DNA from: Mycolicibacterium alvei
GTDB taxonomy: Bacteria > Actinomycetota > Actinomycetes > Mycobacteriales > Mycobacteriaceae
Reading direction: 5' to 3'
Length of the DNA: 64,000 nucleotides
Assembly: GCF_010727325.1 (NCBI RefSeq)
Contig: NZ_AP022565.1
Location: 1,426,001 to 1,490,000, forward strand
Part shown: piece by piece, positions 40,882 to 61,616 of the stretch
How the letters are laid out: each line of letters opens with the position of its first letter
Numbering within the stretch: the first letter of the stretch is position 1
The notes under the pieces: model-generated
Databases searched by the model: none
The model's input: the letters and a program-made list of their open reading frames with translations, nothing else
What the model was told of the DNA's origin: nothing
Made by a program: the position numbers and the translations under genes

Positions 40882-40907
40882 GTGACATTCTCAAGAGAAT
40901 CTGTAAA
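40882..40907. promoter_or_regulatory. Shared 26-bp operator, copy 1
   Basis: Plus strand reads GTGACATTC, ten bases, then CTGTAAA. It sits between the divergent hypothetical/thioesterase pair (start 40798) and the DUF427/SRPBCC pair (start 41007). The ten-base spacer sits within a second dyad, ATTCTC-AA-GAGAAT (40887-40900). Two positions differ from the three other copies found near 50607, 58946 and 61591. It is probably the site of the TetR-type regulator encoded at 61626. Confidence 0.6.
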
Positions 40908-41006
40908 GCTTCTGTTTTGAGGCAGCGATCGACCACGCCAATGGCCACCGCTGCGTCGAGCAGACGCGCCCGCGTCCGGAAAGTTGTCCAAAATGGAGGT
41001 GCTGCA

Positions 41007-41714
41007 ATGAGTCTCGTCGCAGGGCGGGGTCCGTTGGGTACACAACCGGCCGGTTGGTTCACTCCCCCGCTCACTGACGGCACGGTCTACGTCGAACCGC
41101 ACCCGCGCCGTATTCAAGCTTTCCGCGGCGAAGTCGCGGTACTCGACACCGAGCACGCCCTGATGGTGCACCGCGCCGGTCACCCACTCAGCTACGCATT
41201 CCGCAGCGATGAGGTCGGTGACCTCCCGCACGAGCCGGTGGCCGAGGCAGCGGGATATGTGGCGGTGCCCTGGGACGCCGTCGACACGTGGGTCGAAGAG
41301 GGCCGCCAGCTCGTGCACTACCCGCCGAATCCCTACCACCGGGTCGACTGCCGGACGACCCGCCGCGGCCTGCGGGTGACGGCCGCCGAGACCGTGCTGG
41401 TCGACACCGACGACACGGTGATCGTCTTCGAAACCGCCTTGGAACCGCGGCTGTACGTCAACCCCGCCCTGGTCCGTACCGATCTCCTACAGATCAGCCC
41501 GACCACGTCGTACTGCAACTACAAGGGCACCGCCACCTACTGGTCGGCGGTCGTCGGCGACACCGTCATCGCCGACGTGGCGTGGAGTTACCCCGACACC
41601 CCACCGGAATCCCTGCCCATCCAGGGATTCCTCAGCTTCGACGACACCCGCGTGGACGTGCTCGCCGAACTCCCCTCGTCGGGGACGTCGGCGTCCTGCG
41701 GCTGCGAAGTGTGA
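41007..41714 (+). CDS. DUF427 domain protein
   Basis: 235 residues from ATG 41007, with GGAGG seven bases upstream. Two DUF427-like repeats can be seen: one around VYVEPHPRRIQAFRGEVAVL and one around LVDTDDTVIVFETALEPRLY. The second repeat continues with SYCNYKGTATYWSAVVGD and DVAWSYPDTPPESLPIQGFL (split DVAWSYPDTPPE, SLPIQGFLSF). DUF427 proteins are small beta-barrel proteins of unknown function, often near catabolic genes. It ends in a Cys-rich tail SCGCEV. The SRPBCC gene follows after 31 bp. Confidence 0.8.
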   Translation: MSLVAGRGPLGTQPAGWFTPPLTDGTVYVEPHPRRIQAFRGEVAVLDTEHALMVHRAGHPLSYAFRSDEVGDLPHEPVAEAAGYVAVPWDAVDTWVEEGRQLVHYPPNPYHRVDCRTTRRGLRVTAAETVLVDTDDTVIVFETALEPRLYVNPALVRTDLLQISPTTSYCNYKGTATYWSAVVGDTVIADVAWSYPDTPPESLPIQGFLSFDDTRVDVLAELPSSGTSASCGCEV

Positions 41715-41745
41715 CCACCAGAAATATCGAGGAAGGCGAACAGCA

Positions 41746-42219
41746 GTGGGCATCGTGACCACCAGTTCCGAGACGGCTTTCACGCAATCAGCGGAGGAGG
41801 TCTACGATTTCGTCACCAATCCAGCGAACTGGGTGAAGACCTACCCGGGCAGCGCGCACATCGGCGGATTACCCGAGCGGCTACCGCTGCAGGTCGGCGA
41901 CACCTGGTCCGAGGCCGGACCCGACGGAACCCAGATCTACACCTGGCACCTGGCGATCGCCATGCGACCGCGCATGTGGGTGTTCAACTCGGCGGGCCGG
42001 CTCGGCCACGATCGTGACGGCAACGGCGGCATGGAAGGTCGTATCACCGTTCAGTATCAGTTCACCCGCCCGGGCAACGACATCACGCTGTTCAGCCGCA
42101 CGATGACCATCGAGGCCTATAAAGATGCCCCGCTGCCGGATGCACTGTTCCGCGTGGTCAATCCGGCCAACATCGACAAGTATCACGCCGCGGTGGCCCG
42201 GGAGCTGGCGCTCGGCTGA
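41746..42219 (+). CDS. SRPBCC (polyketide cyclase/START-like) ligand-binding protein
   Basis: 157 residues, start GTG 41746 with GAGGAAGG upstream. The fold is indicated by the opening helix-strand pattern TTSSETAFTQSAEEVYDFVT, NPANWVKTYPGSAHIGG, strands LQVGDTWSEAGPDG, WHLAIAMRPRMWVFNS and VQYQFTRPGNDITLFSRTMT, and a long C-terminal helix FRVVNPANIDKYHAAVARE. SRPBCC proteins bind hydrophobic ligands or help cyclise them. Paired with DUF427, it probably handles an intermediate of the local catabolic pathway; that is inference. Confidence 0.78.
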   Translation: MGIVTTSSETAFTQSAEEVYDFVTNPANWVKTYPGSAHIGGLPERLPLQVGDTWSEAGPDGTQIYTWHLAIAMRPRMWVFNSAGRLGHDRDGNGGMEGRITVQYQFTRPGNDITLFSRTMTIEAYKDAPLPDALFRVVNPANIDKYHAAVARELALG

Positions 42220-42227
42220 GCCGCGAA

Positions 42228-43641: not shown

Positions 43642-44565
43642 TCATCCGTGCAGGGCACGGCGCAGTGCCGCACCTTGCAATGCGAAAAGTTGCTGGCTGA
43701 CCTCGCACTCGGGAAGCAACGAATCGAATCCGTGGCACGTCCCGGGAAACAGGTGCAATTCGGTGGCAACGCCCTCGATCAGCAGGCGGCGCGCATAGTC
43801 GAGCGCCTCGTCGCGCAGCGGATCGAGTTCCGAACACGTGATCAGTGCCGGCGCCACACCGGTCAGATTCACGGCCCGCGCGGGCACGGCCGCCTCGGGA
43901 ACGTCCCGACCGCCCGCATAGTGTCGCCACATCGCTGCGCTCGCCGGGCCGTCGAAGCCCGGGGTGTCGGAGAACTCCTGCTTGGACCGGGTGGGACGGT
44001 CGTCGAGCACCGGCTGGTGCAGCGACTGGAACACGATGGGGGGCGCGGAGCCGGCCGCGGCATGCTGCGCCAGCAGCGCGGCCAGAGAGCCGCCCGCGCT
44101 GTTGCCGGCCACCGCGATGCGGCCCGGGTCGATGTCGAGTTCGCCGGCCAGCGTGGCCGCCCAGTTGAGCACCACCATCGCGTCATCGAAGCCGGCCGGA
44201 TAGGGATACTCGGGTGCGAGCCGGTAGTCCATCGCGATCACGGTGCACCGGGCACGGCGGGCCAACTCCACACATTGGATCTGGTCGGTGTCGAGGTTGC
44301 CCAGGACGAAGGCACCCGAATGGCAGTACACCACCGCGGGCGACGGTGAGGGTCCACCGCGGTAGATCCGCACCGGGATGGTGCGTCGTCCGAGCGCGAC
44401 GCGCGCCCCGACGATCTCCACCCCCGGGGTGTCCAGGACCTGCGCAGCATCGCGGCGACGCTGATCCAGAGAGGTACGCACCACGCCCAGCTGATCAGTG
44501 GTCAGATCGGTCCGGGCCTCGGCAAACCCGTGCAACGCGGGGTCGAGGCGCTCCAGCCAGGGCAT
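43642..44565 (-). CDS. Alpha/beta hydrolase/esterase, LipH/HSL family
   Basis: 307 residues. The HSL-type oxyanion motif appears as VVYCHSGAFVLGNLDTD (HSGA where HGGG is usual). The nucleophile elbow is VAGNSAGGSLAALL (Ser about 153). The acid and His are in CSELDPLRDEALDYAR and FPGTCHGFDSL. It is the last gene of a seven-gene operon, 3 bp after the Baeyer-Villiger monooxygenase gene, so it may hydrolyse the ester or lactone that enzyme makes. No signal peptide is visible. Confidence 0.85.
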   Translation of the reverse strand: MPWLERLDPALHGFAEARTDLTTDQLGVVRTSLDQRRRDAAQVLDTPGVEIVGARVALGRRTIPVRIYRGGPSPSPAVVYCHSGAFVLGNLDTDQIQCVELARRARCTVIAMDYRLAPEYPYPAGFDDAMVVLNWAATLAGELDIDPGRIAVAGNSAGGSLAALLAQHAAAGSAPPIVFQSLHQPVLDDRPTRSKQEFSDTPGFDGPASAAMWRHYAGGRDVPEAAVPARAVNLTGVAPALITCSELDPLRDEALDYARRLLIEGVATELHLFPGTCHGFDSLLPECEVSQQLFALQGAALRRALHG

Positions 44566-44568
44566 GGC

Positions 44569-46098
44569 TCAGCCGTCCGTCCGATCGGCGGCCGCGGAGA
44601 CCGGGGCCGGGTAGTTGGTGGGCGGTTGGAAAGTGTAGTCCGCGGACCGGAATCGGCGGGTCATCGACCAGAATGCGCGGGCGCTGCGTGGCCACTGGGT
44701 GACCACCCGCCCGCTGGGTGCCCGGAAGTAACTGCTGCACCGGGTCAACCACACCGTGCCCTGCATCCACCGGTCGATGTCGGCCAGAAACGCGGCCATG
44801 GCGCTGGGACGCACCGCCACGTAGGACTTACGTTTGCGCCGAAGGTGTTTGAGTGCCCGGACCACGTAGCGGGCCTGTGCCTCCAGGATGAAGATGACGC
44901 TGTTGGAGCCGACGTTGGTATTGGGCCCGTAGAGCATGAAGAAGTTCGGGAAACCCGGCACGGTCATTCCCAGGTAGGCAAAAGCCCCGTCACTCCACGT
45001 ATCGTGCAGCGACGCCCCGTCTTCGCCGGTGACCTCGATCTGCCCGAGATAGTCGGCGGCCGCATAACCGGTGGCGCACACCACCACATCGACGTCGAGT
45101 TCTCGCCCGTCCTCGGTGACCAGCGACCGGGCCCGCAGCGCGCGGGCCGGGCTCGACACCACCTCGACGTTGGGCTTCGTCAGGGTGGCGATGAAATCCG
45201 GGGAGAACACCAGCCTCTTGCACCCCAGCGGGTGGTCCGGGGTCAACCGGGCCCGCAGTTCCTCGTCGGCCACGGTCGATTCGAGGAGGTTGAGCGCAAC
45301 CGCCTTGAACTCCTGGGTCTTGTCGCTGCCGTCCTCGATGACGGCGATGTTGGACTCGCTGCGCAGCCACAGCCGGGTCCGGTAGACCTTCTTCGCGAAC
45401 GGCACATGAGCAAACAGCCAGCGTTCCCGCTCGGTGTAGCGGCGGTCCGGTTTCGGCAACACCCAGGTCGGCGAGCGCTGCACCGAATACACCTTCTCGG
45501 CGACCTTCGCTATCTCCGGAACCACCTGGGAGGCAGTAGATCCGGTACCGAGTACGGCCACCCTGGCGCCGTCGACCGCGACGGTGTGATCCCAGTTCGC
45601 GGTGTGCATGACCGTGCCGGCGAAAGGCTCCTCGGCCGGCAGGTCCGGTAGCAGCGGCTGGGTGAACAGGCCGATCGCCGACACCACGATGTCGAATCGG
45701 TGCTGCACACCGGCCCCGGTGGTCAGCACCCACTTGTTGGCATCGGCGTCCCACCGCGCCGCGGTGATCTCGGTGTTCAGCTGCAGATGCGGACCCAGCC
45801 GGTAGCGCTCGGCACAGCGCTCGAAGTACTCCAGGATCTCCGGTTGTCCTGCCCACAACCTGCTCCAGTCCGCGTTGAGATCGAACGAGTAGGAGTACAG
45901 GTGCGACTTCACGTCGCAGGCCAGGCCCGGATAGGTGTTGATCCGCCACGTCCCACCGACCCCGTCTTCGCGGTCGAAGATCGTGAAGACGTCGAAACCC
46001 GCCTTTTTCAGGAAGATTCCGAGTGCCAGCCCACCCGGACCGGCGCCGATGATTCCCACTGAGAGTTTCGGTGATCTGGCACTCGACACCTGTGTCAT
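44569..46098 (-). CDS. Baeyer-Villiger-type flavin monooxygenase
   Basis: 509 residues from ATG 46098, which overlaps the SDR stop as ATGA; ATG 46113 is an alternative. FAD binding is VGIIGAGPGGLALGIFLKKA near the N-terminus. The BVMO fingerprint FxGxxxHTxxW is met by FAGTVMHTANW (about 155-165), followed by the NADPH motif VAVLGTGSTASQVVPEIAK. Late segments are VVVCATGYAAADYLG and FFMLYGPNTNVGSNSVIF. It should insert oxygen next to a ketone to give an ester or lactone. Its place between dehydrogenases and an esterase supports that. Confidence 0.88.
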   Translation of the reverse strand: MTQVSSARSPKLSVGIIGAGPGGLALGIFLKKAGFDVFTIFDREDGVGGTWRINTYPGLACDVKSHLYSYSFDLNADWSRLWAGQPEILEYFERCAERYRLGPHLQLNTEITAARWDADANKWVLTTGAGVQHRFDIVVSAIGLFTQPLLPDLPAEEPFAGTVMHTANWDHTVAVDGARVAVLGTGSTASQVVPEIAKVAEKVYSVQRSPTWVLPKPDRRYTERERWLFAHVPFAKKVYRTRLWLRSESNIAVIEDGSDKTQEFKAVALNLLESTVADEELRARLTPDHPLGCKRLVFSPDFIATLTKPNVEVVSSPARALRARSLVTEDGRELDVDVVVCATGYAAADYLGQIEVTGEDGASLHDTWSDGAFAYLGMTVPGFPNFFMLYGPNTNVGSNSVIFILEAQARYVVRALKHLRRKRKSYVAVRPSAMAAFLADIDRWMQGTVWLTRCSSYFRAPSGRVVTQWPRSARAFWSMTRRFRSADYTFQPPTNYPAPVSAAADRTDG

Positions 46099-46826
46099 CC
46101 GATCTGCAGACATTGGCCGCCGTCGACAAGGAGCTCGGAACCGGTGATGAACGCCGCCTGCCCGGACAGCAGAAACGCCACCGCATCGGCGATTTCGTTC
46201 GGCTTTCCCAGGCGACCCAGGGTGGCCCGGTCGACCAGTCGGGCCTGGGTCGACTCGTCGAGCATCGGCGTCTCGACCGGTCCCGGGAACACCGCATTGA
46301 CGCGGATCCCGTCGCGGCCCAGTTCGGCGGCCGCCAACTGGGTGAGCCCACGCAGCGCCCACTTGGACGACCCGTAGGCCGCGTGGTGCGGGAACGGGCG
46401 GACAGCGCCGGTGCTGCAGGTGTTCACCACGGCAGCGCCCTCGGCCTGCCGTAGCGGCTCAAGGGCCGCCTGAAGTCCGAGGAACGGGCCCAGACAGTTG
46501 ACCCGCCAAGCACTCTCGAACCCTGCCGGCGTCTCCTCGGGGATAGATGCCCGGTGCAGCACCCCGGCGTTGTTGACCAGCGCGTTGAGCCCACCGAACC
46601 GGTCGACGGTAGCCTGCACCGCGGCCTGCCACTGCTCAGCCGACGTCACGTCCAGCTGAACGCCCAGCACCTGATCACCGAATTCAGCTGTACCGGAGTT
46701 CAGTTCGTCGATCAGCAGATCGGCCGCGGTCACCCGGTAGCCATCGGCCACCAACCTTCGCACGATGGCCGCGCCCTGGCCGCGTGCAGCACCGGTCACC
46801 AACGCGACCCGGTTACCGCTCGGCAC
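46095..46826 (-). CDS. Short-chain dehydrogenase/reductase of the P450 operon
   Basis: 243 residues. Classical SDR motifs are VTGAARGQGAAIVRRL, VNNAGVLHRASI, a catalytic Ser in NTCSTGAVRP, and YGSSKWALRG (Tyr/Lys). The C-terminal SGQAAFITGSELLVDGG is typical. It follows the aldolase gene by 11 bp and overlaps the monooxygenase gene by 4 bp. It probably oxidises a secondary alcohol made by the P450 to the ketone used by the monooxygenase; the substrate is inferred from gene order. Confidence 0.87.
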   Translation of the reverse strand: MPSGNRVALVTGAARGQGAAIVRRLVADGYRVTAADLLIDELNSGTAEFGDQVLGVQLDVTSAEQWQAAVQATVDRFGGLNALVNNAGVLHRASIPEETPAGFESAWRVNCLGPFLGLQAALEPLRQAEGAAVVNTCSTGAVRPFPHHAAYGSSKWALRGLTQLAAAELGRDGIRVNAVFPGPVETPMLDESTQARLVDRATLGRLGKPNEIADAVAFLLSGQAAFITGSELLVDGGQCLQIG

Positions 46827-46837
46827 TGCTCCTGCGT

Positions 46838-47650
46838 TCAGTTGTAGCCTCCTCGTTCGGTGCCGGTCGTAGCCTGCCCGGGTGTGGACGAACCGCCGGC
46901 ATTTCCTATTGCCTCGTTGAGGTGCTCGACGGCACCGCGGCGTAGCGCCTGAGATTCCGAGGCGAGGGTGATCATCTGGAAACCCCAGTCGGCCGCGACC
47001 TTTCCGAGCTTGCCTGCCCCGGCATGGATTCCGGTGATCAGCCCGGCGGCGCGGGCGGCGCTCTGGGCCGCGATGATCGCCGCCTGTATCTCGGGGTGCG
47101 TCCAGGCGTCGGAGAGTTGGTATCCCATCGAGATGGCCAGGTCCGCCGGGCCCACGTAGATCCCGGTGAGGCCGGGCACCGCGCAGATCTCCTCGGCGGC
47201 GGCCAGACCCCGCGCCGTCTCGATCATCACGAACACACTGACCCGGGACTCCAACTCGGCGGTGTCCTGTCCCAGGCCGGCCCGCAGCGGTCCGAAGCTG
47301 CGCACCCCGGCCGGCGCGTACCGGGTGGCCGCGACGGCAGCGGCGGCCTGCTCGGCCGTTTCCACCATCGCGATGATCACCCCGTCCGCGCCGGCATCGA
47401 GGACCCGGCCGATCGGTGCGGGGTCGGGCGACGGCAACCGCACCGCGGTGGCGATCGGCACATGTTCGAGCCGACGCAACAGCAGGGCCACGTCGGCATC
47501 ATCGAGATATCCGTGCTGGACGTCGAATCCGACGTAGTGGTAGCCGGCCGCGGCGAACTCCTCGGGGCCGAGGATCGTCGGCCCGACCACCCAGCCGCCC
47601 CAGACCCGGGCGTTGGCCGCCAGTGCATCCTGCAATCTGCTGGTGCTCAT
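46838..47650 (-). CDS. HpcH/HpaI-family class II aldolase
   Basis: 270 residues. ATG at 47650 overlaps the alcohol dehydrogenase stop as ATGA. Motifs are GGWVVGPTILGPEEFAAAG, YVGFDVQHGYLDD, TAVRLPSPDPAPIGRVLDAG, the metal-ligand Glu in FVMIETARGLAAAEEI, and GIYVGPADLAISMGY. The family cleaves 2-keto-4-hydroxy acids to pyruvate (or oxaloacetate) plus an aldehyde. It would act late, on an opened-ring acid. The C-terminal 25 residues are low-complexity. Confidence 0.86.
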   Translation of the reverse strand: MSTSRLQDALAANARVWGGWVVGPTILGPEEFAAAGYHYVGFDVQHGYLDDADVALLLRRLEHVPIATAVRLPSPDPAPIGRVLDAGADGVIIAMVETAEQAAAAVAATRYAPAGVRSFGPLRAGLGQDTAELESRVSVFVMIETARGLAAAEEICAVPGLTGIYVGPADLAISMGYQLSDAWTHPEIQAAIIAAQSAARAAGLITGIHAGAGKLGKVAADWGFQMITLASESQALRRGAVEHLNEAIGNAGGSSTPGQATTGTERGGYN

Positions 47651-48615
47651 CGGGTGATCGCGATCTTGACGCGTTCGGGCACCGGGCGGCAGGCGAGTTC
47701 GAATGCCGCCTGCACATCGTCGGAACCGAAGGTGTGGGTCACGTAGCCGGGTAACAGGTCCGGATGCTCCCGGGCGAATTCGTCGGCCCGGCGCAACACC
47801 CGCTGACGGTCCAGGGTGACACCGGATTTCAGGGTGAGGTTGTTGCGGAGCATGGTGCGCATGCTGATCGGATAGCTGTCGTCGTCGGGCACCCCGAAGT
47901 AGAACACCGTGCCCCCGAACGCGGCCGCTTCCAATGCGTGGTTCAGCGTGGCGACCTGATGTCCGACGGCCTCGATGACGACATCGGGCTTGCCCGTCGG
48001 TTCCAGGTGCCTGACCCAACGATCGCTCGTGGCCCGGATGGGATGATCAACCCCGAACCGGGCGCTGACCGAAGAACGGTCCACCGGATCGACACCGGTG
48101 ACCCGAGCGGCACCGAACGCCTTTGCCACATAGGCGAACAACAATCCGATCGAGCCCTGGCCGATGATCGCCACGTGGCGGCCTTCCAGATCCGGCAGCT
48201 GCTCGAGCGCGTAGAGGACACAGGCCAGCGGTTGCAGACCGACCGCCAGCTCCGGGGTCAGAGTCGGGTCGTAGGACACCAACCCGTGGCCGCCGGCGAC
48301 CACGCGGCCCATCAGACCGTCGAAGCCCGAAGCCCAACCCACCACACGCTCCCCCGGTCGGTGGTCCGGATGGCGACTGGCCAGCACCTCGCCGGCGATC
48401 TCGTGGATCGGGAATCCGGTCATCTCCGCCGCGCAGCATCCGGTATCCCCCGGCAACTTGCCCTGGGTGCCGCGAAATCCCGGGAGATCGCTGCCGCAGA
48501 TCCCGGCGGCCAGAAAATCCAGCAGCACCTGGCCGTCGGTCAGCGACTCCGGTGACGGCTCTGAAATATCCTGCCGCTCAAATGTATACGGAGCGACGAG
48601 CCGGTATGACCACAC
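47647..48615 (-). CDS. Zinc-type medium-chain alcohol dehydrogenase
   Basis: 322 residues, slightly short. The catalytic zinc region is seen in LAAGICGSDLPGF and FPIHEIAGEVLASRH. The Rossmann motif is VAIIGQGSIGLLFAYVAKAFG (split VAIIGQGSIGLL, FAYVAKAFG), then TGVDPVDRSS. The four-Cys structural zinc loop is missing. It starts 1 bp after the P450 stop and overlaps the aldolase gene by 4 bp. Likely role: oxidation of a P450-generated alcohol. Confidence 0.85.
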   Translation of the reverse strand: MWSYRLVAPYTFERQDISEPSPESLTDGQVLLDFLAAGICGSDLPGFRGTQGKLPGDTGCCAAEMTGFPIHEIAGEVLASRHPDHRPGERVVGWASGFDGLMGRVVAGGHGLVSYDPTLTPELAVGLQPLACVLYALEQLPDLEGRHVAIIGQGSIGLLFAYVAKAFGAARVTGVDPVDRSSVSARFGVDHPIRATSDRWVRHLEPTGKPDVVIEAVGHQVATLNHALEAAAFGGTVFYFGVPDDDSYPISMRTMLRNNLTLKSGVTLDRQRVLRRADEFAREHPDLLPGYVTHTFGSDDVQAAFELACRPVPERVKIAITR

Positions 48616-48616: not shown

Positions 48617-49855
48617 TCACACCTCCACGGGGATGTTGTTCCAGCCCCACTGGAAACTCGAGGGCGGGCGGGATGCCGCAGCCTCGTCGATGTGGTAGTC
48701 GGGCACCCGTTTGAGGAATTCCTGGATCAGGATCGTGATCTCCAACCGGGCCACATGGACACCGAGGCAGAAGTGCTGACCATGGCCGAACGACAACAGT
48801 CGTTCGATGGGCCGGTTCCATACGAAGTCGTCTGGGTTGTCGTATTCCCGTTCGTCGCGGGCCGCCGAGGCCAACAACGTGATGACGCGTTGACCGGGGT
48901 TGATGGTGGTGCCGTGGACGGTGTAGGGCCTCCGGACGGTGCGGGCGAACCACTGCGCAGGTGCACTGTGCCGGATGATCTCCTCACGGGCGACCGGGAC
49001 GTTCCCGTCGAGATCGGAACGTACCGCGGCCAATTGGGCGGGGTGCCGCAGCAGCTGCCAGAGTCCGGTCGCGGTGATCTTGGGCACGGTTTCGGTACCG
49101 CCGATGAAGACGCCGAGCATCTGCACGGCGGCTTCCATGTCCCCGAAGGCCGATCCGTCGGGCAGCCGGAAATCGATCAGGGCATCGGCGATCGGGACAC
49201 TGCCGTCATGACCTTCTGCCCGCCGGCGCTCGATGATCGGCGTGAGGTAGGACAGGTAGCCAGGGCGGGCGTTACCGACCTCGACGCCTTCCCCGGGTTG
49301 AGCCAGGTTGCCAGCGTTGACCGTCTCCAGTACTTCTGACGCGAGATCGACTGGCAGTCCGACGAATTCGCAGACCATCGAGGCGGCGACGATACCGCCA
49401 TAATCCTGCGTCAGGTCGAACTTGCCGCGCGGCAACAGCTCATCGAGACGCTCGTTGGCCAGCGTTCGGATCCTGTCGGCCAGCTTGGCCGCCGACCGCG
49501 GCCGGAACTGCGCCGACGTACACCGCCGCACGTCCTCGTAGATCGGCGAATCGAAGTTGGCGTGGAAGGGCATGGGGTGCAACGGCGGATCCTGCACCGC
49601 GCTGTCGTTGTGGTGCGCGAGGACGGTGGCGGCGGGCAGCGTCCCCTCGGAGGCAACGAAAGTTCCATCGTTGATCCCGAGCATGTTCCAGATGTCGTCG
49701 AACCGGGACAGCGCATAGGTGTCCCACTTGTCGATGTAGTACACCGGGTACTCGTCGCGCAGGGTCCGGTAGTACGGCAGAGGGTTGGCCATCACGTCCG
49801 GATCGAACGGGTCGTAGGTGAAATCCTGCAGCACGCGCTGATTCATCGAGTTCAT
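48617..49855 (-). CDS. Cytochrome P450
   Basis: 412 residues; ATG 49855 or 49846 (MNSMNQ) are equally placed. The I-helix oxygen-binding segment is LGVFIGGTETVPKI. The ExxR pair is in VAREEIIRHSAP, and the heme-Cys loop is LLSFGHGQHFCLGVHVARLE (Cys about 360). No membrane anchor is seen, so it is a soluble bacterial class I enzyme needing external ferredoxin; none is encoded nearby. It follows the NIPSNAP-like gene by 8 bp. It probably hydroxylates the substrate that starts the pathway. Confidence 0.93.
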   Translation of the reverse strand: MNSMNQRVLQDFTYDPFDPDVMANPLPYYRTLRDEYPVYYIDKWDTYALSRFDDIWNMLGINDGTFVASEGTLPAATVLAHHNDSAVQDPPLHPMPFHANFDSPIYEDVRRCTSAQFRPRSAAKLADRIRTLANERLDELLPRGKFDLTQDYGGIVAASMVCEFVGLPVDLASEVLETVNAGNLAQPGEGVEVGNARPGYLSYLTPIIERRRAEGHDGSVPIADALIDFRLPDGSAFGDMEAAVQMLGVFIGGTETVPKITATGLWQLLRHPAQLAAVRSDLDGNVPVAREEIIRHSAPAQWFARTVRRPYTVHGTTINPGQRVITLLASAARDEREYDNPDDFVWNRPIERLLSFGHGQHFCLGVHVARLEITILIQEFLKRVPDYHIDEAAASRPPSSFQWGWNNIPVEV

Positions 49856-49863: not shown

Positions 49864-50568
49864 CTACTTCAGCGGCGACGGCGGCAGGGCCGACAGGATG
49901 GAGTCCTCCCAGCCGTCGCGAAGCGCGGGGGCCACGCTCATCCAGGTCACGATCTCCACGGGCGGGTCCCCCTTCCACGACGGGTAGTGGTTCTCGAAGC
50001 AGTCCCAGTCGTCGTCGAGCGCCCAGTAGTGGATCACCTCGTTGAACCGGAAAGTCGTGATGAACGAGCCCAGCCAGCGCTTGCCCGTGCTCTCCGACCA
50101 CGGTACATACAGCCGTTCCAGCTCCCGGATGTAATCGTCCTGACGCCCGGGCTTGGTCTCCATGATCTCCTGGATCACCAGGCCCGCACCGAAGTTTGCC
50201 TCTCGGAGCTGCGCCAGTGTCCGGTTGTACTTGCCGGCGTACATGATTCGACCCTCACCGCGGGCCCCGATCTCGGACAGGTAGGCAGCCCACTGCAGTG
50301 CGGGCTTCTCATGACTGCCGCCGACCGCCTGCGCCTTGCCGATCCGGGCATAGTCGGCGAATGCGTCGATCTCCCAGATGATCGTCACCTGCGGCCAGTG
50401 CCCGTTGTAAGGCGTGGTTTCCCAGATCGAGAACAGACGGGCACCGAGGTCCTCCATCATCGGCTGATAGACCTCGCCGAACATTTCCGTGAACCGATCG
50501 GTCCGACCCGACCCCAGGTCGATGGTCTCGTGCAGATACAGCAGCGTGTGGCCGTAGAACTTCTTCAT
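49864..50568 (-). CDS. NIPSNAP-like protein, first gene of the P450 operon (tentative family)
   Basis: 234 residues from ATG 50568, with GGAG six bases upstream; a longer start at 50613 would cross the operator. Two similar halves are suggested by YGHTLLYLHETIDLG, LFSIWETTPYNGHWPQVTII and FGAGLVIQEIMETKPGRQDD, FRFNEVIHYWALDDDWDCFE. These recall ferredoxin-like dimeric alpha-beta-barrel (NIPSNAP/EthD-type) domains. Function is unknown. It lies downstream of the shared 26-bp element at 50607. Confidence 0.65.
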   Translation of the reverse strand: MKKFYGHTLLYLHETIDLGSGRTDRFTEMFGEVYQPMMEDLGARLFSIWETTPYNGHWPQVTIIWEIDAFADYARIGKAQAVGGSHEKPALQWAAYLSEIGARGEGRIMYAGKYNRTLAQLREANFGAGLVIQEIMETKPGRQDDYIRELERLYVPWSESTGKRWLGSFITTFRFNEVIHYWALDDDWDCFENHYPSWKGDPPVEIVTWMSVAPALRDGWEDSILSALPPSPLK

Positions 50569-50606
50569 CACGACGCTCCGGTGGTTGACAGTGACACCCA
50601 GCGAGC

Positions 50607-50632
50607 GTGACACTTAAGGCGTGTTTTGTAAA
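50607..50632. promoter_or_regulatory. Shared 26-bp operator, copy 2
   Basis: Plus strand reads GTGACACTT, ten bases, then TTGTAAA. It lies in the 75-bp gap between the divergent P450 operon (start 50568) and SMP-30 gene (start 50644), 11 bp before the latter. A second GTGACAC occurs 16 bp upstream at 50591. The same arms and the same ten-base spacing recur at 40882, 58946 (reverse orientation) and 61591. Confidence 0.65.
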
Positions 50633-50643
50633 GGTGCGCGAAC

Positions 50644-51504
50644 ATGACGGCCGGAACCGAGCAGACGGGGACATCCGAACTGGCACATGGTTTCTGTTTC
50701 GGTGAGGGGCCCCGCTGGTTCGAAGGCCTGCTGTGGTTCTCCGACATGCTGGGCGAGGCCGTCCACACGGTCACGCTGTCAGGCTCCATGACCACCCTGC
50801 CCGTCCCCGGACACTCCCCGTCCGGGTTGGGTTTTCGGCCCGACGGCACCCTGCTGATCGCATCGACCGAGCGCCGCCAGGTACTGCGCTACGACGGCGA
50901 CACCGTCGTAGTCCTGGCCGATCTCAGCGACCTGGTCCCCGCAGCCCTCGGCGACATGGTGATCGACGAGCACGGCCGCGCCTATGTCGGGTCCCAGGCC
51001 CGGACCAACGGGGTGATCGTGCGCATCGACCCCGATGACCGAGTGACGGTGGTGGCCGAGCACCTCGACTTTCCGAACGGCATGGTGATCACGCCCGACG
51101 GCAGCACCCTGATTGTCGCGGAGTCGACGGCGCGACGGCTCAGCGCGTTCACAATCCGCCCTGACGGCAGCCTCACCGACCGACGGGTGTTCGCCGATGG
51201 TCTCGACGGCCCTCCCGACGGTCTCGCGATCGACGCCGAGGGCGGGGTGTGGGCGGCGTTGACCCTGGCCGAAGAGTTCCAGCGGATCGCTCCCGACGGT
51301 TCTGCGATCACGCACCGGATCGACGCCGGGCAACGCACCGCCATCGCGTGCGCCCTGGGCGGTACCGAGGGACGCACCCTGTTTCTGGTCACCACCACCG
51401 ACGCCTATCCGGAGCGTCTCATCGGCACCAAGCTGTCGCGGGTCGACGCGCTGACGGTCGAAACGCCCGCACCGGGCGATCACGACTCTCATCATCACCA
51501 CTGA
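50644..51504 (+). CDS. SMP-30/gluconolactonase-family lactonase
   Basis: 286 residues. The six-bladed beta-propeller with its metal site is indicated by CFGEGPRWFEGLLWFSDM (Glu ligand near residue 20), HLDFPNGMVITPDGSTLIVA (Asn ligand, split HLDFPNGMVI, TPDGSTLIVA), and GPPDGLAIDAEGGVW (Asp ligand). The family opens lactones, so it fits downstream of a Baeyer-Villiger monooxygenase that makes them. The protein ends in DHDSHHHH, a natural His run. The thioesterase-like gene follows after 26 bp. Confidence 0.88.
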   Translation: MTAGTEQTGTSELAHGFCFGEGPRWFEGLLWFSDMLGEAVHTVTLSGSMTTLPVPGHSPSGLGFRPDGTLLIASTERRQVLRYDGDTVVVLADLSDLVPAALGDMVIDEHGRAYVGSQARTNGVIVRIDPDDRVTVVAEHLDFPNGMVITPDGSTLIVAESTARRLSAFTIRPDGSLTDRRVFADGLDGPPDGLAIDAEGGVWAALTLAEEFQRIAPDGSAITHRIDAGQRTAIACALGGTEGRTLFLVTTTDAYPERLIGTKLSRVDALTVETPAPGDHDSHHHH

Positions 51505-51530
51505 CGACCACCAACACCCGAACGGTAGAT

Positions 51531-52361
51531 ATGTCTGACTCTTACTACGAGCTGATCGACGAGAACGACCCGACCGGTGAGAAATTCGCTGCGACCGATA
51601 TGGCGCGCGGAACCTGGTCGGCGGCCATCCAGCATGGCGCCCCGGTGTCGGCGTTGCTGGTGCGGGCACTGGAACGCTGCGAGCACCGCGCCGACACCCG
51701 GTTGAGCCGGGTGGCCATCGATCTGATGGGCGGGGTGCCCTCCGACGGTGACCTGTGGGTGCGGGCGCAGCTGGAACGGCCGGGCAAGCAGATCGAACTG
51801 GTCAGCGCCGAGATGCTGGCCCCCGGGCCGGACGGCACGCCGCGAGTGGTGGCGCGGGCCAGCGGGTGGCGGATGCTGCAGATGGACACCACCGCGGTCG
51901 CGCACACCGGTGTCGAGCCCCTTCCGCCGCTGGAGCAGGCCCGCAGCCGCGACATGGCCAAGAACTGGGAGACCAACTACGTGCACAGCGTGGATTGGCG
52001 CTGGCTGACCGTGCCGCAAGCCCCGGGTCCCGGTGAGTCATGGCTCAAGCCGACGGTCGACGTGGTCAAGGGTGAGGCGATGACACCGCTGCAGCGGTTG
52101 TTCGCGGTTGCCGATGACGCCAACGGCATCGGCTCCAAGATCGACATCCGCAAGTGGACATTCCTGAACACCGATCTGGTGGTGCACATCCACCGTGTTC
52201 CCGATGGGGAGTGGATCGGCATCCGCGCCGATACCAACTACGGGCCCGACGGGATCGGCGCCACGGTCGGGACATTGTTCGACCAGACCGGCGCGGTGGG
52301 CGCGATCCAGCAGTCGGTGCTGGTGCGGCCCCGCCCTTCGAAGCGCTCCCAGCGCGCCTAG
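51531..52361 (+). CDS. Thioesterase-family protein (TesB-like acyl-CoA thioesterase)
   Basis: 276 residues from ATG 51531; longer in-frame sequence overlaps the lactonase and is rejected. The first hotdog shows TWSAAIQHGAPVSALLVRAL and RLSRVAIDLMGGVPSDGDLW (split RLSRVAIDLMGG, VPSDGDLW). The second shows FLNTDLVVHIHRVPDGEWIG and FDQTGAVGAIQQSVLVRP. These match acyl-CoA thioesterase domain-containing proteins of actinobacteria. It probably handles CoA esters of the same catabolic pathway. Confidence 0.8.
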   Translation: MSDSYYELIDENDPTGEKFAATDMARGTWSAAIQHGAPVSALLVRALERCEHRADTRLSRVAIDLMGGVPSDGDLWVRAQLERPGKQIELVSAEMLAPGPDGTPRVVARASGWRMLQMDTTAVAHTGVEPLPPLEQARSRDMAKNWETNYVHSVDWRWLTVPQAPGPGESWLKPTVDVVKGEAMTPLQRLFAVADDANGIGSKIDIRKWTFLNTDLVVHIHRVPDGEWIGIRADTNYGPDGIGATVGTLFDQTGAVGAIQQSVLVRPRPSKRSQRA

Positions 52362-52362
52362 C

Positions 52363-53838: not shown

Positions 53839-53894
53839 CAATGCCGCGCAGTTAAGCGTGTGACTGGTGTGGCAATTGTGACACGCCGTGTGGG

Positions 53895-55314: not shown

Positions 55315-55347
55315 CAACAGGGCGCGGACCTTAACTGCGCGGCATTG

Positions 55348-55357
55348 CCGTTAGCGC
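55348..55357 (+). repeat. IS4 target-site duplication, right copy
   Basis: CCGTTAGCGC, identical to 53829-53838, follows the right inverted repeat directly. Confidence 0.88.
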
Positions 55358-56087: not shown

Positions 56088-56286
56088 TGGCACCGCGGCG
56101 AAACTGCTCGCCGGCCTAGACCATCCCGGCCGCACACCGTCGCAGCAGCACCTTCCCGACTTGCCAGCGTTCCCGTTGCCAATGTGCTCGCGGCACACAG
56201 AGACCATTGACTTGATGCAGTTCGTCCAGCGCAGCGTGCGCGCCAGCGTAGGTGACACACCGAGGCGTGGCACGTCGCTGACGCCC
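56088..56286. other. No gene recognised
   Basis: This stretch has no convincing coding pattern on either strand and no clear dyad. It separates the membrane-protein gene from the decayed remnant at 56287-56781 and may be the scar of the deletion that made that remnant. Confidence 0.4.
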
Positions 56287-56781: not shown

Positions 56782-56862
56782 CTGCGGCTACCGAGGCTAT
56801 CAACCGGGGGTGACTGCGACGCGCCACCTCGACATCCTGTGTGGCGAACCGGGCGAATTGGA

Positions 56863-58038
56863 TCACGCTGCTCGGCGAAGAACTGAGCGGTCCAGGTCGG
56901 CCATGCTCGCCACACCCATCAGCGTCAGCGTCGAACGGACCTCGGCGGCCAGGATGTCGAGTACCGCGCCCACCCCGGCGCCGCCGGCCACGGCCAGCCC
57001 GTAGATATAGGGCCTGCCGATCATCACCGCGTCGGCGCCAAGGGCCAGGGCCGTGACGATGTCGGTGCCGGTCCGCACACCACTGTCAAGCAAGACGGTG
57101 GCACGCTCGCCGACCGCGTCGGCGACATCGGGCAGCGCATCGACCGAGGCACGTGCACCATTCAGTTGGCGCCCACCATGATTGGACACCACCACTCCGG
57201 TTGCCCCCACCTCGTCGACCGCGCGGACCGCGTCCTCGGGTTCCAGCACGCCTTTGACGACGAACGGGCCGTCCCAGCGCTCGCGGAGCGCCGCCACATC
57301 ACGCCAACTCAGGTCGGGCCGGATTCGGCGGTTCTGGATGCTCACGGATTCCACCGCGCCCTTCGCACCTGCGGTGTGGGTGAGGCTGCGCATCGTCATC
57401 CGCTGGTGCCGCAGCAGTCCGTACCACCAGTGCGGCCGGATCGCGGCGTCGGCGATGCGGCGTGGGGTGAGGATCGGCGGGTGGCCCATGCCGGTGCGCC
57501 GCTCGCCGGTGCGGTTGCCCTGCACCGGAACGTCGACGGTCACCACCAGGGTGCGATACCCGGCGTCACGGGCCCGACTCAGCATGGAATCCGAGAACGG
57601 GCCATCGCCCCAGGGATACAGCTGAAACCAGTGATCCGCCGAGGTGCCTTCGGCGACTTCCTCGATGGAGTACGACGACGCGGTCGACAGTGTCAGTCGG
57701 GTGCCGGCCCGTTCGGCCGCCTGCGCGGCAGCGAGTTCACCGGACCAGTGCGCCAGGCCGGTGAGCCCGGTGGGCGCCAGCACCAAGGGCAGCTCGAGCT
57801 GTTGCCCGCCGATCGTCACACCGATGTCCGCGCCGGCGTGGCCAGATAGAACACGTTGGCGCAGGTACCAATTCGCGAAGGCACTGCGGTTAGCCCGCAA
57901 GGTCCGCTCATCCTCGGCGCCCCCGTCCAGATACGCCCACACCATGGCGGGCAGGGCCCGCCGCGCCGCCGTGCGGTAGTCCTCGACGCTGACCAGCGGG
58001 GCCGGAGTGCGCAGCCGGTACTGGAAGGCCGGGCTCAT
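56863..58038 (-). CDS. FMN-dependent alpha-hydroxy acid dehydrogenase/oxidase (LldD/lactate oxidase family)
   Basis: 391 residues from ATG 58038, which overlaps the cyclase stop as ATGA. Family marks are the opening YRTAARRALPAMVWAYLDGG and ERTLRANRSAF, then PLVLAPTGLTGLAHWSGE, TLSTASSYSIEEVAEG, WFQLYPWGD, the Lys in FVVKGVLEPEDAVRA, the active-site His in GVVVSNHGGRQLNGA, and LLDSGVRTGTDIVTALALGA (FMN phosphate). It oxidises a 2-hydroxy acid to the keto acid. Its exact substrate is unknown, but coupling to a cyclase and nearby P450s points to catabolism of an organic ring compound. Confidence 0.87.
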   Translation of the reverse strand: MSPAFQYRLRTPAPLVSVEDYRTAARRALPAMVWAYLDGGAEDERTLRANRSAFANWYLRQRVLSGHAGADIGVTIGGQQLELPLVLAPTGLTGLAHWSGELAAAQAAERAGTRLTLSTASSYSIEEVAEGTSADHWFQLYPWGDGPFSDSMLSRARDAGYRTLVVTVDVPVQGNRTGERRTGMGHPPILTPRRIADAAIRPHWWYGLLRHQRMTMRSLTHTAGAKGAVESVSIQNRRIRPDLSWRDVAALRERWDGPFVVKGVLEPEDAVRAVDEVGATGVVVSNHGGRQLNGARASVDALPDVADAVGERATVLLDSGVRTGTDIVTALALGADAVMIGRPYIYGLAVAGGAGVGAVLDILAAEVRSTLTLMGVASMADLDRSVLRRAA

Positions 58039-58943: not shown

Positions 58944-58945
58944 GC

Positions 58946-58971
58946 TTTACAATATTGCACAAAATTGTCAA
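58946..58971. promoter_or_regulatory. Shared 26-bp operator, copy 3, in a 29-bp divergent promoter
   Basis: Plus strand reads TTTACAA, ten bases, then AATTGTCAA, the reverse orientation of the other copies. Here the dyad is best developed, with 12-bp arms TTTACAATATTG and CAAAATTGTCAA around CA, matching at 10 of 12 positions. The site fills nearly all of the 29 bp between the cyclase GTG (58943) and the P450 ATG (58973), so a bound regulator would block both. Confidence 0.7.
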
Positions 58972-58972
58972 C

Positions 58973-60202
58973 ATGACAGCCATGGTCGCCACCCATTTTC
59001 CGCTGCTGTCCTTCGATACCACCGATCCGGCGTTCGTCGCCGCTCCGTGGGCGCGCTACCGCGAGATCAGGGATTTGGGCGGAGTGGTCTTCAACGAGCG
59101 AATCAACCGGTGGATGGTCGGCGAATTCGACCTGGTCAAGCAGATCCTCAGTGCGCCTTCACAGTTCGGCTCCGAGCGCGGGCAGGTCGAGCACGCCGCG
59201 GTGTTCGGCGGGCCGACGATGGAGTTCTACGACGGACCGCACCATGACCAGATCAGGTCGATCTGGTCGGGCGATTTCCGGCCCAGGATGCTGGCGCGGT
59301 TGCGCCCGGTGATCACCGAGATCGTGCGGGCCAGGCTGGCGCCGGTCGCCGCCCGGCTGCGCGACGGGGAAACCGTCGAGGTGGTCTCGGAACTGACCCG
59401 GGGTATCCCGACCGAGGTGATCGCGCACATGCTCGGTGTGGAACCGGACATGGTCGGCCAGTTCACCGCGTGGAGTGACGCGATGGGCGCCTCCGCGGAG
59501 GGCTACAGCATGCCCGGCGAACACGGTGCCGAGTTGATCGCGGCCGGCAAAAGCGCCACAGCCCAGATGAATACCTACATTCGTGAACAGCTGCCCAGCC
59601 GGGGCTGCCCGGCGGACGGCAGTTGGGATCTGATCGGCACGATGGTCGGCCACGAGTATGCCTGTGAGCACATGACCGAACAGGAGATCGTCGCGAGCAA
59701 CACCCAATTGGTGTTCGCCGGCAACGAGACCACCGCCAAGCTGCTCGCCCAGATCGTTGCCACTCTGGCCGTCCATCCGGATCAGCGCCGACTCCTCCAG
59801 GCCGATCGCACCTTGGCGCTCGATGCGGTGGAGGAAGTACACCGCCTGGAAACGGTGTCGCACTCCATCTTCCGCGACGTGGTCGGCGAATCTGTCACTG
59901 TCGGTGACATTGCCATGGCCGACGGTGAACGGATCACCCTGCTACTGGGCGCGGCCAACCGCGATCCAAGACGCTGGGAGCGTCCCGACGACTTCGACAT
60001 CACCCGGCGCAAGTTGTCGCATCTGGGATTCGCCTTCGGCCTGCACAGCTGCCTGGGCATGAACCTGGCTCGCCTGGAGGCCCAGATCTTCCTCGAGGAA
60101 CTGATCGACGCCGTGGGCGACTGGCGACTGGCCGGCCCCCTGGACTACGGCACCAACTACACCGTCCGCGGGCCGAGTCAGGTACTCGTCGCAGCGGTGT
60201 AG
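58973..60202 (+). CDS. Cytochrome P450
   Basis: 409 residues from ATG 58973; ATG 58982 and an upstream TTG at 58955 are alternatives. The I-helix segment is TQLVFAGNETTAKLLAQIV. ExxR appears as EEVHRLETVSHS, and the heme loop as HLGFAFGLHSCLGMNLARLE (Cys about 351). No membrane anchor is present. It shares a 29-bp divergent promoter with the cyclase gene and converges on a second P450 gene 80 bp downstream. No ferredoxin gene is in the window, so the redox partner must be encoded elsewhere. Confidence 0.92.
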   Translation: MTAMVATHFPLLSFDTTDPAFVAAPWARYREIRDLGGVVFNERINRWMVGEFDLVKQILSAPSQFGSERGQVEHAAVFGGPTMEFYDGPHHDQIRSIWSGDFRPRMLARLRPVITEIVRARLAPVAARLRDGETVEVVSELTRGIPTEVIAHMLGVEPDMVGQFTAWSDAMGASAEGYSMPGEHGAELIAAGKSATAQMNTYIREQLPSRGCPADGSWDLIGTMVGHEYACEHMTEQEIVASNTQLVFAGNETTAKLLAQIVATLAVHPDQRRLLQADRTLALDAVEEVHRLETVSHSIFRDVVGESVTVGDIAMADGERITLLLGAANRDPRRWERPDDFDITRRKLSHLGFAFGLHSCLGMNLARLEAQIFLEELIDAVGDWRLAGPLDYGTNYTVRGPSQVLVAAV

Positions 60203-60211
60203 CTGCCCAAC

Positions 60212-60258
60212 GGCCACTTATCGCACGGATTTTCGCGATTCGCGTGCAACAAGTGGCC
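60212..60258. terminator. Bidirectional hairpin between convergent P450 genes
   Basis: GGCCACTT (60212-60219) pairs with AAGTGGCC (60251-60258), and an inner GCACG (60223-60227) with CGTGC (60243-60247). It stands midway between stops at 60202 and 60283, as expected for a shared terminator; there is no clear U-tract. Confidence 0.6.
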
Positions 60259-60282
60259 ACTGGGCCGAGTTCAGGCCCCGAC

Positions 60283-61539
60283 CTACGCGACGTGCGCAGG
60301 CACGCGCTTGATGCCGTGCACGAAGCTGCTGTACAGCATCTCGGGCTCGCCGAATTCGATCGTCTTGAGCCGGGTCAGCAACTCGTGGAACAGGTGTCGC
60401 AACTCGGTCTTGGCCAGCTGGTTGCCCAGACAGAAGTGCGGACCGCCACCACCGAATCCGATCTGCGGGTTGGGCGAACGGCTCAGGTCGAAGCGTTGCG
60501 GATCGGTGAACACCGACTCGTCCCGGTTGGCCGAGCAGTAGAACATGCCCACCTTGTCACCCGCGCTGATCAGTTGACCGCCGACCTCGACGTCCTCGGT
60601 GGCGTGCCGGGCGAACTGCATCACCGGAGTGGCCCACCGCACGAATTCCTCAGTGGCCATGCCGATTCGGTTGTCGAAATCTTCCAGCAGCCAATCTCTT
60701 TGGTCAGGGTTGGCGGCCAGTGCCATCATCGCGTGGGTGGTGGTCTGCTTGGTGGTGTCATTGCCGGCCGAGGCCAGCAGGATCAGGAACGCCCCGATCT
60801 CCTCGTCGGTCAGCCGGTGACCGTCAACCTCGGCGTTGACGATGCTGGTCATCAGGTCGTCACCGGGATTGGCCCGCCGGAACTTGGCCAGCTCCACCCC
60901 GGTGTTCGAGATCAGCATGATCTCGTTGATGGTGGCCATGGCCCGTTCTTCAAGTGACGAGTACTCGTCATCGCTCATGCTGAACAGCTTTTCGGCGGCC
61001 TTGGCCAGCGCCGGCTGATCGGCGGTCGGCACGCCGAGCATGTCCGAGATCGTCCGCATCGGCAGATGCGCCGAGCACGCCTCGACGAAGTCGACATCAC
61101 CGGCACCGATCAGGTCATCGACGACGGCGACGGCGTTGCGGTGAATCTGCTCTTCGATCTTGCGCACGTTGCGCGGGGTGAACGCCGAGCTGATCAGGCG
61201 GCGGTACGTGGTGTGCTCAGGTGGATCCATCATCAGGAAGAACGTGGCGAACTTCTGCACGTCAGCCGGCATCGGATCCAGTGCGACACCCTTGGTCGAG
61301 GTGAACAGTTCGGGGTGCTGACTGACGAACTGGATGTCCGCCCGGCGGGTGATGGCCCAGAAGCCGGGTTCTTCCACATCGAACAGCGACGACAGCGGCT
61401 GATGCCAACTCAAGCCGTCGGCGGCGCGCAGTTGCGCGAACGTCTCGTCACGCTGAGCGAACGTCTGGCTCCAGAAATCGTGTGACGTGATGTCGAATGG
61501 GCTGTATTCGCGTGCCTGCGGTGAGCTGGCAACTGTCAC
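60283..61539 (-). CDS. Cytochrome P450
   Basis: 418 residues; GTG 61539 has AGGAGG seven bases upstream. Family segments are FFLMMDPPEHTTYRRLISSA (C-helix), ILLASAGNDTTKQTTTHAMM (I-helix), ATEEFVRWATPVMQFARHA (ExxR) and PQIGFGGGGPHFCLGNQLAK (heme Cys about 362). The FGGGGPHFCLG loop is of the type seen in mycobacterial CYP124/125/142 and related sterol- or terpenoid-acting P450s, though I cannot name its subfamily. It is divergent from the tetR gene across operator copy 4. Confidence 0.92.
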   Translation of the reverse strand: MTVASSPQAREYSPFDITSHDFWSQTFAQRDETFAQLRAADGLSWHQPLSSLFDVEEPGFWAITRRADIQFVSQHPELFTSTKGVALDPMPADVQKFATFFLMMDPPEHTTYRRLISSAFTPRNVRKIEEQIHRNAVAVVDDLIGAGDVDFVEACSAHLPMRTISDMLGVPTADQPALAKAAEKLFSMSDDEYSSLEERAMATINEIMLISNTGVELAKFRRANPGDDLMTSIVNAEVDGHRLTDEEIGAFLILLASAGNDTTKQTTTHAMMALAANPDQRDWLLEDFDNRIGMATEEFVRWATPVMQFARHATEDVEVGGQLISAGDKVGMFYCSANRDESVFTDPQRFDLSRSPNPQIGFGGGGPHFCLGNQLAKTELRHLFHELLTRLKTIEFGEPEMLYSSFVHGIKRVPAHVA

Positions 61540-61590
61540 GGTATTCCCTCCTGCACGGCGCTCGACGACAGTGTCGAGCCACGAAATAGC

Positions 61591-61616
61591 GTGACAGTTC
61601 GTCGATAGTTTGTAAA
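61591..61616. promoter_or_regulatory. Shared 26-bp operator, copy 4, at the tetR start
   Basis: Plus strand reads GTGACAGTT, ten bases, then TTGTAAA, with the same arms and spacing as copies 1 to 3. It ends nine bases before the tetR ATG (61626) and covers its likely -10 TAGTTT (61606-61611). It also lies 52 bp upstream of the divergent P450 start. The position suggests autoregulation by the TetR protein. Confidence 0.7.

Follow-up and report, generated by a model that had tools for sequence, protein, structure and literature searches.

Steroid catabolism in mycobacteria is governed by the TetR-type repressors KstR and KstR2, which act at many dispersed sites through short operators, and a set of oxidative enzymes comprising a Baeyer-Villiger monooxygenase (BVMO), an esterase, a short-chain dehydrogenase (SDR) and an alcohol dehydrogenase (ADH) is encoded by the mymA operon, whose regulator VirS is of the AraC type. 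Here we describe a putative operator that is longer than those of KstR and KstR2 and different from them, and that recurs in divergent promoters of a catabolic gene cluster with enzymes similar to those of mymA; among the scanned proteins of this cluster there is no AraC-type match. The cluster lies in a 64,000-nucleotide (nt) stretch of the Mycolicibacterium alvei genome (C1:1426001-1490000 of 6.02 Mb), referred to below as the window. Judging from sequence comparisons, this repeat very probably serves as operator for a mycobacterial subfamily of TetR proteins, as yet unnamed, that would repress an oxidative pathway of lipid or terpenoid catabolism.

Long TetR operators have been described elsewhere. 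MAB_4384 of Mycobacterium abscessus (PMC5895659) is likewise a TetR protein encoded beside a divergent gap, with a 27 bp operator built of two 13-nt inverted repeats for which two dimers are proposed; it differs from the system described here in that the arms are 1 nt apart and that its targets are a single efflux operon and the gene of the repressor itself. Two dimers are also bound at the 22-bp consensus element of CprB (PMC4150764) and at the 28-bp palindrome of QacR (as cited in PMC4482099). Mce3R shares with the present system a role in mycobacterial lipid catabolism and long sites (25 bp), but it is a fused double TetR with non-palindromic operators (PMC11667970), whereas the regulator encoded in the window, TetR1, is a single 178-aa domain with one TetR_N stretch.

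The exact consensus GTGACANTY-N10-YTGTAAA occurs three times in the window, at 40882, 50607 and 61591, always on the + strand, and not once in 100 dinucleotide-preserving shuffles of the window. Allowing up to three mismatches gives five matches against 1.07 expected; these include a copy at 58946-58971 on the - strand with one mismatch (TTGACA for GTGACA) and a match at 59904 with three mismatches that lies within the P450b gene and looks like chance. A wider core, TKACA-N14-TGTMA, matches all four copies and no other position in the window; when 20 random sequences were generated to first order from the composition of the window, two contained it. The first extended copy (40879..40910, +; AGCGTGACATTCTC...CTGTAAAGCT) separates a hypothetical/thioesterase gene pair (-) from a DUF427/SRPBCC pair (+). 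The second (50604..50635, +) lies between an operon of NIPSNAP, P450, ADH, aldolase, SDR, BVMO and esterase genes (-) and an SMP-30/thioesterase pair (+); the variant at 58946..58971 (-) leaves only 3 nt to the start of the cyclase gene and 2 nt to that of P450b, and the last copy (61588..61619, +) sits between P450c (-) and tetR1 (+) with its core 10 nt ahead of the tetR1 ATG. The distances from core to start codon in these four gaps are thus 84/100, 39/12, 3/2 and 52/10 nt. The initial annotation had proposed four copies of one consensus, all in divergent gaps, which tie about 23 kb of catabolic genes into a single regulon. The placement in divergent gaps holds for all four; three copies are exact, but that at 58946 is one letter off. 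Sites do stand at the promoters of the cluster, but cores continue past 61616, and the span includes a ParA-like gene (42231-43466) and a block at ~52.4-56.7 kb that are unlike pathway genes. We find no Rfam element at gathering score between 40 and 64 kb of the window, and no copies of the intergenic gap holding the 50607 site in a plasmid collection.

Two further cores lie beyond the end of the window. The one at C1:1491605 (window-equivalent 65605, 1.6 kb past the end) is between a class III coenzyme A (CoA) transferase gene and an APH/ecdysteroid-kinase-like gene, and the one at C1:1493484 (window-equivalent 67484, 3.5 kb past the end) is between a second regulator gene, tetR2, and an aldehyde dehydrogenase (ALDH) gene. 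The tetR2 gene (C1:1492860-1493366) is at about window-equivalent 66824-67378, 4.7 kb past tetR1, and its product is 65% identical to TetR1; the APH-tetR2 unit has core sites both before and after it.

The core is embedded in a quasi-palindrome of ~32 bp, with the consensus AGCGTGACACTT - variable middle - ATTTGTAAAGCT derived from 176 distinct asymmetric sites. The arms read AGCKTKACA, and the TKACA cores are exactly 14 bases apart, which places the arms 19 bp from centre to centre, or about 1.8 helical turns. We compared 77 named mycobacterial loci (1.41 Mb in total), corresponding to the best 80 of 315 relatives as ranked by TetR similarity and possibly lacking the window's own genome. These contain 276 cores with the 14-base spacer, whereas each other spacer from 8 to 21 yields between 0 and 2, and four scrambled-arm controls yield 0, 2, 0 and 0. 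When arm symmetry is compared over 263 distinct sites, each taken with 10 flanking bases at either end, the outer AGC/GCT and the arm bases T, A, C and A are symmetric, and positions 2, 6 and 7 are consistently asymmetric. The idea that the repeat is a chance recurrence or recently copied DNA can be set aside with near certainty: besides the shuffles noted above, the spacer specificity speaks against it, 232 distinct sites vary in their middle letters between conserved arms, and nothing was found in its favour.

Only one of the 276 cores falls within a matched gene, and the sites keep to particular promoters. For these comparisons tblastn matches shorter than half the query were excluded from locus counts, and gene-pair counts also excluded matches below 45% identity and neighbours separated by over 600 bases. 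A site separates the gene pairs NIPSNAP|SMP30 in 50 of 50 cases, P450c|tetR1 in 50 of 50, CoA transferase|APH in 50 of 52, tetR2|ALDH in 48 of 49, cyclase|P450b in 9 of 9 and P450c|tetR2 in 4 of 4. Pairs internal to operons have none: P450a|NIPSNAP (0/57), SMP30|thioesterase (0/56), APH|tetR2 (0/53), ADH|P450a (0/49) and ALDH|SnoaL (0/47). Gene order varies among the species, and the sites remain at the same promoters; M. vanbaalenii and M. aurum are examples of environmental Mycolicibacterium species that carry the cluster (cf. loci L124 and L130). Across the family, 251 genomes were searched for the 32-mer with one mismatch allowed, and 22 contain it, namely 19 of the 21 in the window's genus, both of those in genus g20 and one, by a single match, in g23; the reversed 32-mer gives single matches in 4 of the 251.

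The tetR1 gene (61626..62159, +) encodes the proposed reader of the operator. Its helix-turn-helix (HTH) region matches TetR_N (PF00440) at 53.0 bits against a cut-off of 24, and its C-terminal part has no Pfam match; an AlphaFold2 model (predicted local distance difference test score 82.8) has nine helices in a TetR fold. The 50 Foldseek matches listed for this model, of 841, are TetR-type, with TM-scores (query) of up to 0.72. Matches in the PDB are generic TetR matches: the best by sequence is the second HTH of Mce3R (E 2.7e-8), CprB (1ui5, E 1.1e-6) matches over the HTH only, and MAB_4384 (5ovy) is found both by Foldseek (rank 47) and by sequence (9.3e-05), the latter match covering the HTH alone at residues 9-64. 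Assignment to described groups was tried and rejected, with scores of 23.6 bits for KstR (cut-off 280), 31.5 bits for FasR (cut-off 330) and 36.6 bits for the ScbR/gamma-butyrolactone receptors (cut-off 150), and TetR1 lacks the two fused TetR domains of Mce3R. There are 2101 homologues of TetR1 at E<=1e-15, and those named among the 120 listed are called TetR/AcrR, AcrR family, helix-turn-helix, hypothetical or, automatically, 'repressor of uid operon'.

The presence of the motif follows that of this TetR subfamily. We took an even sample of 118 genomes of the genus out of a larger group and scored a TetR as close at E < 1e-40. A close TetR is present in 97 of them and the exact motif in 89 (the reversed control in 0); 89 genomes have both, eight the TetR without the motif, none the motif without the TetR, and 21 neither (Fisher p=4.5e-17). 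The NIPSNAP gene is missing from 42 genomes, for which the corresponding numbers are 13, 8, 0 and 21 (p=1.6e-5). All 76 genomes with this operon gene contain the exact motif, and the site is in this sense conserved in relatives that retain the genes.

A more telling comparison comes from a diverged TetR paralogue found at 15 loci (L190-L196 and L260-L267) and 48-55% identical to the nearer of TetR1 and TetR2; these rows correspond to 45-54% identity in the first genome listing, with G077 and a locus on contig 5 of G048 left out. Its neighbourhood is a different one: besides an APH-type kinase and an uncharacterised protein it encodes two hydrolases, one metal-dependent (PF10118) and the other of the alpha/beta type, and pth is matched in 8 of the 15. 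At all 15 loci a core lies within 50 nt upstream of the aligned start of the diverged TetR or overlaps it by 4 nt. Of two more distant rows, L269 (42%) has a core and L268 (48%) does not. Over 17 loci there are 37 core sites in 165 kb, compared with about 0.2 predicted from the eight unassigned cores per 6 Mb in the window's own genome. At the first seven diverged loci, one arm of the site that precedes tetR is AGTGTGACAT... and the opposite arm is mostly TCCTTTACAT or TACTTTACAT, so that the flanks differ from those of the main cluster, as would be expected for a diverged reader. Some of these loci have two sites about 36 bp apart. This test is independent of the main cluster and stronger than the 118-genome table, and the loci would form a second, parallel regulon with the same core and other flanks. 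A P450-rich locus on contig 5 of G048 (L188-L189, 1-38 kb) encodes three further TetR paralogues (40-52% identity), and that contig carries three exact 26-mers, two of them within the fetched 38 kb.

These observations bear on the possibility that some other regulator reads the motif and that the tetR genes are mere common neighbours. In its favour, five of the eight genomes with a close TetR and no exact 26-mer keep the TetR at the fetched locus without exact sites there. However, no genome of the 118 has the exact motif without the TetR, the same core precedes the diverged paralogue elsewhere, and no other shared regulator was noticed among the open reading frames (ORFs) listed for seven of the diverged loci; we therefore regard this explanation as very improbable. 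Within the M. alvei genome, 150 TetR_N matches of 274 first-look candidates were scored, and of these all except TetR1 and TetR2 are more than 3.8 kb away from any core. The idea put forward in the initial annotation, that the pathway is under TetR control, thus gains support from the motif following the subfamily both across genomes and at an unrelated locus; control by a single TetR stands only in part, in that the subfamily tracks the motif but two paralogues are present and not one.

In the wider genome the exact 26-mer occurs five times, the three window copies being joined by C1:1734645, upstream of a P450 gene, and C1:3247153, just before an acyl-CoA dehydrogenase gene; these two distal regulon sites are about 0.25 and 1.8 Mb from the window. 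Equally good matches inside coding sequence are accordingly few, the site at C1:3247153 being one that overlaps the 3' end of an upstream transporter ORF. A core lies 10 nt ahead of the acyl-CoA dehydrogenase start in four genomes (L248, L249, L250 and L259, loci chosen for holding a match), and in three of these the site runs into the 3' end of the preceding ORF. The P450 gene beside the 1734645 site (C1:1733416-1734498; L258:2417-3499) seems by eye to be decayed, with an N-terminal in-frame stop and a missing internal stretch. A search of the genome with two mismatches returns 13 matches against 6 for the reversed control; of those excluded from the regulon (L008-L013) only L011 and L013 look promoter-like by eye, both without AGC flanks. 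At L011 (C1:4153244) a core with G on both arms stands directly before a carotenoid-oxygenase-like gene (named by eye), and L013 (C1:5385874) has a TT-type core where a further TetR-like ORF begins, one that is not among the 150 scored; this may be chance. Other genomes have additional sites in the vicinity of SnoaL-like, nitroreductase/APH and SDR genes (L251-L253, L254, L015 and L256; named by eye), which are possibly species-specific members of the regulon.

We infer the binding of TetR, its stoichiometry, repression, the inducer and the substrate, and several points weigh against the interpretation of the repeat as a TetR operator. A plain homodimer operator needs no asymmetry, yet there is a consistent one, with GTGACA in one arm and TTTACA in the other, and the 19-bp arm spacing exceeds one ordinary TetR dimer, which requires a second dimer or an unusual geometry. 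Eight genomes have a close TetR without the exact 26-mer; in three of these (L180-L182) the TetR locus that was fetched contains exact cores, and in the other five (L183-L187) it does not. Some candidate pairs are mostly siteless (CoA transferase|tetR2, 2/6; CoA transferase|DUF427, 0/4; SRPBCC|SMP30, 1/3), and only eight of the 16 cores in the M. alvei genome are counted as regulon, leaving eight unassigned. Moreover, because the 77 loci were picked by TetR similarity, that set alone cannot test dependence on TetR, and since the 118 genomes are related, the p-values overstate their independence. The eight unassigned cores are close to background, as the reversed-pattern control gives seven, and the arm spacing taken together with the known two-dimer operators of QacR, CprB and MAB_4384 suggests two dimers. 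A TetR1-TetR2 heterodimer was considered as the cause of the asymmetry and set aside, given that G072, with one TetR row among the matches listed, still has asymmetric sites.

A rival reading is that the motif is a sigma-factor core promoter, alternative or housekeeping, to which the TetR gene is merely linked. GTGACA/TTTACA would then be the -35 and TAAAGC/TAAACT the -10 element at a fixed 16-nt spacing, and fixed spacing is usual for the promoters of extracytoplasmic function (ECF) sigma factors. Each well-sampled promoter has a fixed orientation and type: the G/T type faces a single way at tetR2|ALDH (48/48), NIPSNAP|SMP30 (50/50), P450c|tetR1 (50/50) and cyclase|P450b (9/9), and the CoA transferase|APH promoter is of the symmetric TTTACA...TGTAAA type (50/50). 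Many TT-type sites read TTTACA-N16-TAAACT, and start codons are often 9-12 nt downstream. Against this, the outer AGC...GCT flanks are symmetric by consensus, for which a promoter has no need, motif presence follows the TetR subfamily, and the cyclase|P450b site is kept at every locus with that pair; this gap leaves no room for a transcription start, as both start codons in the window are 2-3 nt from the core. A scan with the sigma-70 consensus over 50500-62200 shows no promoter at the three sites there. A promoter without a TetR reader is therefore very unlikely, although operator and promoter may overlap.

Under the preferred reading, TetR1 and TetR2 would bind the ~32-bp quasi-palindrome, probably as a pair of dimers, and once bound would keep both the divergent genes and the tetR genes themselves from being transcribed. 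The operator covers or adjoins the start site of most targets: in the extended cluster, five sites of six have the core 2-12 nt from a start codon (those of SMP30, P450b, cyclase, TetR1, APH and ALDH), the sixth being 84 and 100 nt away, and cores so close to six start codons fit repression by blocking of the polymerase. Autoregulation would act at tetR1, with its core at 10 nt, and at the APH-tetR2 unit, at 9 nt. The substrate or a CoA-thioester intermediate is proposed to release TetR and so turn the pathway on, inducing the P450s (one of them CYP268-like), ADH/SDR, BVMO, esterase/lactonase, aldolase and ALDH together with the CoA transferase, APH-type kinase, acyl-CoA dehydrogenase and thioesterases. 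The right arm, taken with the flanking bases (TGTAAAGCT or TGTAAACT), may also act as a -10 region, and such a dual role would account for the fixed orientation; since the sigma-70 scan shows none, it is conjecture. Alternatively, the TetR proteins could bind the motif and activate transcription in the manner of FasR, since TetR activators, FasR among them, do exist, and FasR is the top entry among the listed Foldseek matches (6o6n, E 4.5e-5). However, that match is generic, as the low NCBIfam FasR score given above indicates, and occlusion is the better fit for operators that lie 2-12 nt from start codons, so that we consider activation improbable.

The genes of the cluster are assigned mostly by Pfam. 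To the left of the first operator are an acyl-CoA thioesterase gene (4HBT_3C / Acyl_CoA_thio; 39342..40208, -) and one for a hypothetical protein without a Pfam match (40208..40798, -), and to its right a DUF427 (NTP_transf_9) gene (41007..41711, +) and a gene that the initial annotation named SRPBCC-like and that has no NCBIfam or Pfam match (41764..42216, +). The ParA/MinD-like ATPase gene that follows inside the catabolic cluster is also present in G020 and G048. The leftward operon comprises genes for an alpha/beta hydrolase (Abhydrolase_3; 43645..44565, -), a Baeyer-Villiger-type flavin monooxygenase (44572..46098, -; assigned by Pfam/PDB comparison), an SDR (46098..46823, -), an HpcH/HpaI-type aldolase (46841..47650, -), a zinc ADH (47650..48612, -), P450a (48620..49846, -), whose PDB sequence matches at E<=1e-40 are to CYP130 only, and the NIPSNAP-like protein used as the operon marker (49867..50568, -; 22.2 bits, just below the Pfam cut-off of 22.3). 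Facing it are genes for an SMP-30/gluconolactonase-like lactonase (50644..51501, +) and a second acyl-CoA thioesterase (4HBT_3; 51531..52358, +). In the block from 52.4 to 56.7 kb an Amidase_6 gene is seemingly interrupted, as judged by eye, by a transposase-like ORF (54076-55311), and the stretch between the 50607 and 58946 operators is about 4.5 kb longer than in G020 (8.34 vs 3.86 kb). Beyond it are genes for a flavin mononucleotide-dependent 2-hydroxyacid dehydrogenase/oxidase (56866..58038, -), a putative cyclase (PF04199; 58038..58943, -, scanned as 58038-58940), P450b (58973..60199, +) and P450c (60286..61539, -), whose closest solved structure is CYP268A2 (E 1.3e-134, searched as 60286-61536). 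CYP268A2 is reportedly active on branched and isoprenoid lipids. After tetR1 comes a gene of the glycoside hydrolase family 3 beta-glucosidase type (62202..64000, +), which runs past the window end and adjoins tetR1 in 17 named loci. Pfam and PDB comparisons of the regulon proteins encoded outside the window identify a CoA transferase III, an APH/EcKL protein, an ALDH, a SnoaL protein and the distal acyl-CoA dehydrogenase; the APH gene (L073:3639-4778) also matches EcKL, ecdysteroid kinase-like, at 55.5 bits (cut-off 22), which possibly hints at a steroid-like substrate. Together these enzymes would provide for hydroxylation, oxidation to the ketone, Baeyer-Villiger insertion, opening of esters or lactones, oxidation to the acid, CoA activation and dehydrogenation, and the pathway would oxidatively degrade an isoprenoid- or steroid-like lipid that is cyclic or branched.

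A more elaborate reading combines several of these elements: the operator would itself be the core promoter, with the TetR subfamily, multiplied across mycobacteria, reading arms set 14 bases apart that RNA polymerase uses as -35 and -10, so that each promoter would retain a single orientation, and paralogues that keep the core and change the flanks (AGC versus AGT/TCC) would define parallel, partly insulated regulons, of which the main one would serve the breakdown of terpenoid or steroid glycosides from plants or hosts. We offer this whole as a speculation that is more probably wrong than right by some way; the glycoside part draws on the beta-glucosidase, the ecdysteroid-kinase-like enzyme, CYP268, the BVMO and the lactonase, and if it were true the pathway would be one not yet named.

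Among the matches listed from the open-licence PMC literature there is no description of the motif or the regulon, a comparison outside which stand the motif logos of 30 TetRs in the 2015 survey PMC4482099, and the initial view of the operator as undescribed agrees with this for the literature so covered. PMC9655578, PMC13254585 and PMC8521596 name CYP268, with no motif description in those places. As far as that literature goes, the regulon and its putative operator are new, and they are of a known kind.

The analysis yields a testable candidate operator, a pair of putative regulators and a delimited set of genes for a catabolic regulon that most of the sampled mycobacterial genomes carry, and it unites several P450s (one CYP268-like), a BVMO, a lactonase, thioesterases and an acyl-CoA dehydrogenase in one pathway. 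Because these genes are linked in one pathway, the discovery of its substrate can begin from a reporter-based screen for inducers. The TetR paralogues, which share one core operator and differ in its flanks, moreover constitute a natural set that is usable for the study of how specificity diverges.

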